A DNA stretch of 11,347 nucleotides. Source: Gammaproteobacteria bacterium (GTDB lineage: Bacteria; Pseudomonadota; Gammaproteobacteria; Enterobacterales; Psychrobiaceae). Where the stretch lies: NCBI GenBank assembly GCA_013214885.1, contig JABSRS010000041.1:3678-15024 (forward strand), read 5' to 3'. Positions 9,407 to 11,347 of the stretch are shown here, piece after piece (the first letter of the stretch is position 1; every line of letters begins with the position of its first letter). A model generated the notes under the pieces. It was not told the DNA's origin. It did no database searches and was given only the letters and a program-made list of their open reading frames with translations. The position numbers and the translations under genes are program-made.

Positions 9407-9518
9407 CGGTGACTAATCGGTCCCCTCGCAATGATACTTAGTGAACTCGGCCAGGCCTGGAAGGGAGCAACCGCAGCTAAGGACTCATGTGCCGAGGTGT
9501 GGCTGGTTAGTTACCACC
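9407..9518 (+). ncRNA. ffs: 4.5S RNA, signal recognition particle RNA
   Basis: A complete small bacterial SRP RNA of about 110 nt, which binds Ffh and directs membrane proteins co-translationally to FtsY and the Sec translocon. The apical core CAGGCCTGGAAGGGAGCA (9452-9469) has the GGAA tetraloop at 9459-9462 and the conserved internal-loop bases CAGG and AGCA. The closing stem is clear: GGTGACTAATC (9408-9418) pairs with 9505-9515 over 11 consecutive pairs, two of them G-U. GTGCCGAGGTGTGGCTGG matches the 3' arm of E. coli 4.5S (GTGCCGGGATGTAGCTGG). The gene is intact despite the transposon end only about 20 bases beyond it. No separate hairpin terminator is seen before that end. The exact mature ends are approximate. 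Confidence 0.95.
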
Positions 9519-9534
9519 TATTCTTATTAGTCTT
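9451..9534 (+). other. Candidate attachment site of the Tn7-like element in ffs
   Basis: The element sits immediately 3' of ffs, so the recognised sequence is probably inside this highly conserved gene. A 5'-CC PAM at 9451-9452 with a 32-nt protospacer at 9453-9484 would place the transposon end 50 bp downstream, the distance known for type I-F3 RNA-guided insertion. The last five bases before the end, GTCTT (9530-9534), are the predicted target-site duplication. A TnsD/TniQ protein that recognises ffs DNA directly would also explain the position. The protospacer placement is inference. Confidence 0.45.
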
Positions 9535-9540
9535 TGTCGC

Positions 9541-9603
9541 TTGCACCATAAGTCTTCTAAATTGCACTATAATTCTTCTAAATTGCACTATTAGCTTTCA
9601 TAG
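9541..9603 (+). repeat. Three tandem 21-bp TnsB-binding-site-like repeats
   Basis: Three head-to-tail copies, each starting TTGCAC(C/T)AT, lie at 9541-9561, 9562-9582 and 9583-9603. Copies 1 and 2 differ at 2 of 21 positions. Copy 3 keeps the first nine bases of copy 2 and diverges after that. Closely packed repeats of about 20 bp are the hallmark of Tn7-family right ends, where TnsB binds cooperatively. A perfect TATAAT (9568-9573) lies inside copy 2 and may be the -10 box of the tnsA promoter, with no convincing -35. TnsB binding would then repress its own operon. Confidence 0.8.
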
Positions 9604-9611
9604 ACTACCCT

Positions 9612-9645
9612 TTGTAGTAATAATACTACAAGTAGGAGTATTACT
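9612..9645 (+). promoter_or_regulatory. Palindromic tnsA leader with ribosome binding site
   Basis: TTGTAGTA-ATAA-TACTACAA (9612-9631) is a perfect 8-bp inverted repeat. AGTATTACT (9637-9645) is a second small palindrome that touches the AGGAG ribosome binding site (9634-9638) and ends against the tnsA ATG. TAGTAATA (9615-9622) can alternatively pair with TATTACTA (9639-9646), which would cover the start codon. The layout suits either a repressor operator or two exclusive RNA structures controlling translation. Neither is shown directly. Confidence 0.5.
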
Positions 9646-10281
9646 ATGTATCGTCGCAATCTGAGATACTCAAGAGTTAATAACCTTTATAAGTTTGCCA
9701 GCTCTAAAATGAATACCGTTTATACCGTTGAATCATCCCTTGAATTTGACACCTGTTTTCACCTCGAATATTCTACGAAAATAATCCAATATGAAGCTCA
9801 ACCTCTAGGCTATAAATATCAATTTGAAGGTAAGACTCAGCCTTATACTCCAGACTTTAAAATGATTGATGCTGCTAACATTGAAACTTTTATAGAGGTT
9901 AAGCCACAATCTAAAACATCAGATATCGACTTCAAAGCACGATTCAAAGAAAAACGAGCAGCGGCACTGGAACTTGGTACATCTCTTGTACTGATCACGG
10001 AACGGCAAATCCAAGTTAACCCAATCCTTAATAATTTAAAGTTATTGCATCGTTATTCTGGATTTCAGAAATTCACTCCATTGCAACTTAAGTTATTATC
10101 TTTAGTACGTAGAACTGGTATTTTGACTGTTCTGCAACTGAGTGAGCAACTTTATTTATCTATTAGAGAGCTAATGGCAAGTGTGATTGGTTTAATCTCT
10201 CATGGCGCTTTACTCACAGACTTGTCCCAAGGTGATTTTGGAATGCAATCAACGGTATGGGTGGTGGGTCATGAAAAATGA
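9646..10281 (+). CDS. tnsA: TnsA-type transposon endonuclease
   Basis: A 211-residue protein matching the Tn7 TnsA family. TnsA cuts the 5' ends of the element while TnsB cuts the 3' ends, giving full excision and cut-and-paste movement. The restriction-enzyme-like N-terminal domain (about 1-135) carries ESSLEFD (E33 as the likely first acidic residue), YTPDF (D70) and FIEVKP (E84, K86), the D-ExK core. ILNNLKLLHRYSG (127-139) links to a C-terminal winged-helix region (about 140-211) that in Tn7 contacts TnsC. A good AGGAG ribosome binding site stands 7 bases before the ATG. The reading frame overlaps tnsB by 11 bp, so the two are translationally coupled. Retaining TnsA implies simple insertion rather than cointegrates. 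Confidence 0.93.
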   Translation: MYRRNLRYSRVNNLYKFASSKMNTVYTVESSLEFDTCFHLEYSTKIIQYEAQPLGYKYQFEGKTQPYTPDFKMIDAANIETFIEVKPQSKTSDIDFKARFKEKRAAALELGTSLVLITERQIQVNPILNNLKLLHRYSGFQKFTPLQLKLLSLVRRTGILTVLQLSEQLYLSIRELMASVIGLISHGALLTDLSQGDFGMQSTVWVVGHEK

Positions 10282-11347
10282 AATCAGTTTGTTTATTGAT
10301 GAAACGAATACCGCTAATACCTCGCAAGATGAAAGTACTACCCTATCTATTTATTCCGACCGAGATCTAGCTAGCTATCCAGCTACTATTCAAATAGAAA
10401 CAATGAGGCGCGTAAAAATCCTTAAGTGGATAAAAACACGCCTGACAGGTGGCTGGACTGAAAAAAACCTTAAGGATCTGATAGTCGAAGCTAAAAAAGA
10501 TCTACAAACGGATATCCCCAGCGTCAGAACACTTGGAACCTGGTGGCGTTTATATTTCAATTCTGGCTATCAGTTGTTGTCACTTATTCCAAGGCATAGC
10601 TCCAAAGGAAACACTAACAAACGATTAAGAGATTCAGATGAAGTTTTTTTTGAACGAGCACTAGAACGATATTTAGTAAAGGAAAGACCAACCATTGCGC
10701 ATGTTTACCAATATTACTGTGACACTATTCGACTTGAAAACAAAAGTTTAGTGATCGGTGCAGTAAAAGAAATATCCAAAAGAGCTTTTTACAAACGTAT
10801 TGACGAAATGCCGAAGTATGACGTAATGGTGGCTAGGTATGGCAAATATCGCGCTGACATCGAGTTCAATGCCATTGATGGGCATTTGCCTCCACAGCGT
10901 GTGTTAGAAAGAGTCGAAATAGACCACACACCCTTGGATTTAATCCTTATTGACGATGAACTCCTTGTGCCATTAGGCCGCCCTTATTTAACGTTATTAA
11001 TTGATAGTTTCAGCAAGTGCGTTGTAGGCTTTTATTTCGGATTTAAAGAACCAGGTTATGAGTCCACTCGAAAAGCATTAATGCATGCATTGATGCCAAA
11101 GGATTATATTAAACAAAAATACCCAGAAATAGTTAATGATTGGCCTTGCCGTGGGAAAATGGAGCAACTGGTGGTCGATAATGGCGCCGAGTTTTGGTGT
11201 GACAGCCTTGAGCAAGCTTGCTTAGAAATTGGTATTAATGTTCAGTACAACCCAATAAAAAAACCGTGGTTAAAGCCATTTGTAGAGCGATTTTTTGGCA
11301 CGTTAAATAAAAAGTTTCTTGTGGATATTTCAGGTAAGACGTTTTCT
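10271..11347 (+). CDS. tnsB: TnsB-type DDE transposase, 3'-truncated by the window edge
   Basis: The first 359 residues of a TnsB, open to the window end. TnsB binds the end repeats, cuts the 3' ends and joins them to the target. The N-terminal part (about 1-205) holds the DNA-binding helix-turn-helix regions, including a tryptophan-rich TLGTWWRLYF stretch and SKRAFYKRIDEM. The RNase H-like core follows, with D218 (VEIDHTPLDLI), D303 (LVVDNGAEFW) and E339 (PFVERFFGTLN). Exactly 35 residues separate the last two, a DD35E triad, so the visible active site is intact. GRPYLTLLIDSFSKCVVGFY is typical of the TnsB/TniA branch. The ATG at 10271 lies inside the end of tnsA. The C-terminal part, which contacts TnsC, is outside the window. 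Confidence 0.95.
   Translation, partial: MKNEISLFIDETNTANTSQDESTTLSIYSDRDLASYPATIQIETMRRVKILKWIKTRLTGGWTEKNLKDLIVEAKKDLQTDIPSVRTLGTWWRLYFNSGYQLLSLIPRHSSKGNTNKRLRDSDEVFFERALERYLVKERPTIAHVYQYYCDTIRLENKSLVIGAVKEISKRAFYKRIDEMPKYDVMVARYGKYRADIEFNAIDGHLPPQRVLERVEIDHTPLDLILIDDELLVPLGRPYLTLLIDSFSKCVVGFYFGFKEPGYESTRKALMHALMPKDYIKQKYPEIVNDWPCRGKMEQLVVDNGAEFWCDSLEQACLEIGINVQYNPIKKPWLKPFVERFFGTLNKKFLVDISGKTFS

Follow-up and report, generated by a model that had tools for sequence, protein, structure and literature searches.

The 11,347-nucleotide stretch of DNA analysed here (the window) very probably holds one end, the transposase-proximal one, of a CRISPR-guided transposon (CAST) of type I-F3b, a Tn7-like element inserted at a usual chromosomal attachment gene, ffs. 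Visible in the window itself are ffs, a transposon end and its repeats, tnsA, that part of tnsB which encodes the catalytic residues, and a 50-base spacing between the predicted target and the element; tnsC, tniQ, the cas genes and an ffs-matching spacer were seen in relatives only. Because the ffs/tns arrangement recurs in other genomes, it is not attributable to chance. The features of the window are:

9415..9511, + strand: ffs, the small SRP RNA gene, intact (RF00169, 75.1 bits, model positions 1-97 of 97)
9451..9484, + strand: predicted guide-RNA target within ffs, comprising a CC PAM (9451-9452) and a 32-nt protospacer (9453-9484)
9535..9603, + strand: transposon end, with a TGT terminus at 9535 and three tandem 21-bp repeats (9541, 9562 and 9583)
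9646..10281, + strand: tnsA, endonuclease, 211 aa, complete (PF08722, E 1.8e-10; PseTnsAB structure, E 3.4e-52)
10271..11347, + strand: tnsB, DDE transposase, first 359 residues (PseTnsAB, E 1.8e-109; triad intact)

Transposon end and transposase genes

A sequence-only reading of this DNA had placed a Tn7-like element immediately after ffs, with an intact RNA gene followed within about 20 bases by a TGT-starting end, tandem end repeats, tnsA, and a tnsB with an intact DD35E triad, and our analysis bears out each of these points. The gap between ffs and the TGT terminus is 23 bases, and the three repeats that follow, which are probably TnsB-binding sites, begin at 13218, 13239 and 13260 in the numbering of locus L002 (offset 3677 from the window numbering). 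The same end, with three repeats, is present in the sister genome G007 (locus L003), and a more diverged version is found in G003. The window covers one transposon end only, with no second end or target-site duplication in view; there, the adjacent tnsA and DDE tnsB genes and the TGT terminus with repeated TnsB-type sites are features of Tn7-like elements.

The reading frames of tnsA and of the visible part of tnsB are open, and the catalytic triad of TnsB consists of D218, D303 and E339, with 35 residues separating the last two. The contig (15,024 bases, of which the window takes up 3678-15024) stops inside tnsB, and since the end of the window is the end of the contig, the truncation is a product of assembly. 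The truncated TnsB had no Pfam match at E 0.001; the PADLOC TnsB profile matches it at E 3.9e-21. Among solved proteins, PseTnsAB, from the Pseudoalteromonas type I-F CAST (PseCAST), is the closest to both TnsA and TnsB of the window, followed for TnsB by the Tn6677 protein (E 3.9e-58) and that of Tn7 (E 7.8e-16).

Predicted target within ffs

When the last spacer of the CRISPR array in G007 was scored against the whole window, its best-scoring place was the ffs site, with agreement at 21 of 27 scored positions and a runner-up at 16. Every sixth guide base is not read, and for this reason every sixth position was omitted, leaving 27 to be scored; the best of 20 offsets was taken. The same spacer has 5 mismatches of 27 against the ffs of its own genome and 6 of 27 against that of the window. 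Of 200 shuffled spacers, the best agreed at 20 of 27 positions at some place in the window, and the mean of their best scores was 16.9. A score of 21 is, by itself, only just beyond chance, and it is the position inside ffs that counts. We infer that the window element would use an ffs-matching guide of this kind.

The PAM at the window site is CC, as compared with TC in 96.6% of ffs cases according to an excerpt of PMC12774636. Attachment genes are given as ffs and rsmJ for type I-F3b and as guaC and yciA for type I-F3a in an excerpt of PMC11406308; the window element is attached at ffs, and the earlier claim that ffs is an attachment gene of I-F3 CASTs agrees with this published assignment for I-F3b. 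The distance from protospacer to TGT is 50 bases in the window, within the 47-51 bp past the protospacer reported for insertion by a Shewanella I-F3 CAST (an extract of PMC12452197). It is 51 bases in both G007 and G003, 49 in G037, 52 in G070, and 49-51 in five Pseudoalteromonas loci, several of which begin with TGTTGT and so allow offsets of 46 to 56. In four other genomes (G050, G069, G086 and G101) the TGT closest to the site is 39-40 bases away, and the 47-51 spacing was not seen at these ends.

Related elements within the genus

The host genus is probably Psychrobium; the HPPD protein encoded in the window shares 85% identity with one assigned to Psychrobium sp. 1_MG-2023. Among nine genomes of this genus, ffs was detected in eight (it was not found in G006, which is 80% complete), and tnsA lies beside it in three: G000, the window's own assembly; G007; and G003, whose contig stops within tnsA. 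These three group together in a TnsA tree (support 100/99). The tree, in which several forks are weak and G106 and G081 form long branches, was used only for this grouping; the label "CAST at ffs" requires five changes on it and does not define one clade.

In G007, genes shared with the window upstream of ffs (HPPD, a LysR-type regulator and a helix-hairpin-helix protein, by ORF reading) are followed by ffs, the end with three repeats, tnsA, tnsB and tnsC, and the proteins of the two elements are 82% (TnsA) and 76% (TnsB) identical. Another contig of this genome, C51, carries tniQ, cas8/5, cas7 and cas6 (PF06527, PF09614, PF09615, PF09618), together with an Xre regulator gene beside a CRISPR array of three repeats, the last spacer of which matches ffs. 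The Xre gene is a candidate for RtbC, the I-F3b-type regulator; the visible part of the window element has no Xre gene. The best match for TniQ and Cas8/5 of G007 is the structure pair 7u5d/7u5e, which we take to be AsCAST. Since G007 has a single match each for TnsA, TniQ, Cas7, Cas8 and TnsC, we treat the tnsABC-at-ffs half and the guide half as parts of one element, lying on separate contigs that are not physically joined. A search for the far end on C51 with the near-end repeats gave one weak match (12.5, versus 26-30 for real repeats), which was rejected.

Genes for HflK, HflC, an aconitase-like and a fumarase-like protein lie beside the guide module on C51 (L059, 16490-20000, and L064), the names other than HflK being assigned by reading. 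HflK was not used to recognise the chromosomal flank on the right: there is a second HflK on contig C74 of G007, and the C51 copy is only 32-38% identical to its best matches in other genomes of the genus. In view of this divergence and of the additional copy, the HflK block may be cargo. Just past tnsC in G007 (L003, 13167-16179, - strand) are genes for two proteins, one of the MATCAP family, carrying an N-formylglutamate amidohydrolase domain, and one that is glutathione-synthetase-like; neither has a match in the other loci compared.

Two further genomes of the genus carry remnants or isolated genes near ffs. In G008, which has no TnsA match, an isolated CAST-like end lies 26 bases downstream of ffs (L043); one repeat can be recognised in it, and it is probably the scar of a lost element. 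G004 has an Xre gene 255 bases downstream of ffs, unaccompanied by tnsA (L039, 4348-4668, - strand) and 74% identical to the array-side Xre of G007; a strong Cas7 match elsewhere in the G004 genome (508 bits) probably belongs to a canonical type I-F system.

Related elements outside the genus

TnsA matches were found in 18 of the 118 genomes searched, and stretches were read from 15 genomes, 12 outside the genus plus three of Pseudoalteromonas. Nine of the 15 combine ffs with tblastn matches for tnsABC, tniQ, cas8, cas7 and cas6 (G037, G050, G069, G086, G101, G070, G119, G121 and G120); the tniQ match of G120 contains one TAA, and tnsC of G070 matches in two pieces. Each of these nine distant genomes, like G007, has a spacer that differs from the ffs of the same genome at 4-8 of 27 scored positions, as compared with 12-18 for 22 other array spacers, those of G007 included. 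For G037 the ffs spacer has 5 mismatches, and another spacer of the same genome, counted among the 22 controls, has 15. Together with the tniQ-cas8/5-cas7-cas6 module and ffs spacer of G007, the nine full gene sets lend support, through relatives, to the I-F3 CAST type suggested by the sequence-only reading.

Other loci are less complete. G122 has tnsABC at ffs (L007), with TniQ fragments only, on another contig, and a search of its genome for Cas7 found none; G009 (L092) has ffs and a partial tnsA only. Decayed copies of such elements therefore exist. Several loci were set aside: G081 (at a contig end, with no ffs match and no cas gene seen), G106 and L009 (each at a contig end), G098 (no cas gene, and no ffs match within 17 kb), and G055 and G076 (I-F cas matches, with no ffs match in the stretch). 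The TnsA matches of G063, G115 and G014 have surroundings that lie outside the loci read.

Proposed mechanism and alternative explanations

For a type I-F3b CAST at ffs we propose the following mechanism, each step of which is conditional. The last spacer of the element's own array, a homing spacer, would supply a guide RNA, and this RNA, borne by TniQ-Cas8/5-Cas7-Cas6, would bind the 32-nt site in ffs. TnsC would then be recruited, and TnsA and TnsB would insert the element approximately 50 bases beyond it, downstream of the RNA gene, such that ffs stays intact. The window copy presumably possesses such a guide half past the end of the contig, or did so until recently.

The window's own assembly is 88.9% complete and is divided among 601 contigs. 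Searches of it, for which G007 served as the positive in the case of TniQ, Cas7, Cas8, TnsC and the repeat core, found none of the rest of tnsB, tnsC, tniQ, cas7 or cas8 (cas6 was outside the search), and the I-F-type repeat core CTGCCGNNTAGGCAG, and hence an array, was not found in it either; a separate TniQ-family search directed at this assembly alone, which had no match in any control genome, is uninformative by itself. No relative was found in the viral contigs searched. The missing parts could reflect decay, in which one end and tnsAB persist at ffs after the tnsC, tniQ or cas half has been lost, leaving a copy that is no longer self-mobile, and the decayed-looking loci of G122 and G009, the solo end of G008 and the stray Xre gene of G004 are in keeping with such a history. 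The open frames of tnsA and visible tnsB, with the DD35E triad intact, argue against it. The remainder of tnsB is also absent from the assembly, which points to a lost contig and not to gene loss; a lost contig therefore explains the missing half at least as well as decay does, and we consider decay distinctly improbable. A relic consisting of tnsAB without tnsC and tniQ, which the sequence-only reading had named as contrary to its proposal, is not what is present in G007, where both genes occur; for the window's fragmented and incomplete assembly the point stands insofar as neither gene was detected.

It is also conceivable that a Tn7-like element devoid of CRISPR components recognises ffs through a protein, a TnsD-type TniQ. 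Such targeting has precedents in glmS for Tn7 and in parE for some I-F3 elements (from an excerpt of PMC11406308), and the search for cas7 and cas8 in the window's assembly found no cas gene. Nevertheless, an ffs-matching spacer was present in all ten of the genomes read in which a tniQ-cas module was found as well as tnsABC at ffs, the sister G007 among them, and protein targeting appears to us extremely unlikely. A more elaborate possibility, to which we would give some weight while thinking it rather unlikely, is a Psychrobium lineage of ffs-homing CASTs with a CC PAM, a drifted guide, repeated occupation and loss of ffs within the genus, and possibly a large metabolic cargo. The repeated occupation is suggested by three occupied genomes, one solo end and one stray Xre gene, and the cargo is hinted at by the genes for HflK, HflC, an aconitase-like and a fumarase-like protein that adjoin the guide module in G007.

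Relation to known systems

Tn6900/AsCAST, the I-F3b element of Aeromonas salmonicida, shares ffs as its attachment gene with the window element (according to excerpts of PMC12774636 and PMC11406308). The two differ in host genus and in PAM, CC in place of TC, and the guide half of the window element is unseen in its assembly. On the presumed identity of 7u5d/7u5e, AsCAST is the best match to the TniQ and Cas8/5 of G007; for TnsA and TnsB of the window the closest solved proteins are those of PseCAST. Tn6677/VchCAST has the same general machinery; its TnsB is clearly more distant, and the I-F3a branch to which it belongs uses guaC and yciA, unlike the window element (an excerpt of PMC11406308). 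Tn7 resembles the window element in its tnsA-tnsB order, its combination of an endonuclease with a DDE transposase, and its insertion beside an essential gene, but its TnsB match is weak and it uses glmS through TnsD.

The window element is thus a sound but fairly ordinary addition to a family of CRISPR-guided transposons known to settle at ffs as a safe landing place, and the principle of ffs as a safe site selected by guide RNA is already published. Among the 20 papers listed, of 110 retrieved, in a literature search on Psychrobium and CASTs, none names the genus. What it contributes is the placement of an ffs-homing, RNA-guided transposon in probable Psychrobium, in which some genomes of the genus have an occupied ffs site, others a scarred one and others one that appears empty, a set that would be useful for studying the arrival and decay of such elements.

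Second elements and internal genes

In Pseudoalteromonas sp. CIP111854 (L062/L063) and in G037 (L080, 6280-6608), a second tnsA follows the cas genes of the first element, the copy in G037 being broken; these apparently represent tandem CASTs at ffs. In P. shioyasakiensis (L006, 12964-19664), the interval between tnsC and tniQ encodes an OLD-type ATPase with a UvrD-like helicase, and a nucleotide cyclase paired with a membrane protein, a putative cargo that, by reading only, resembles anti-phage defence.
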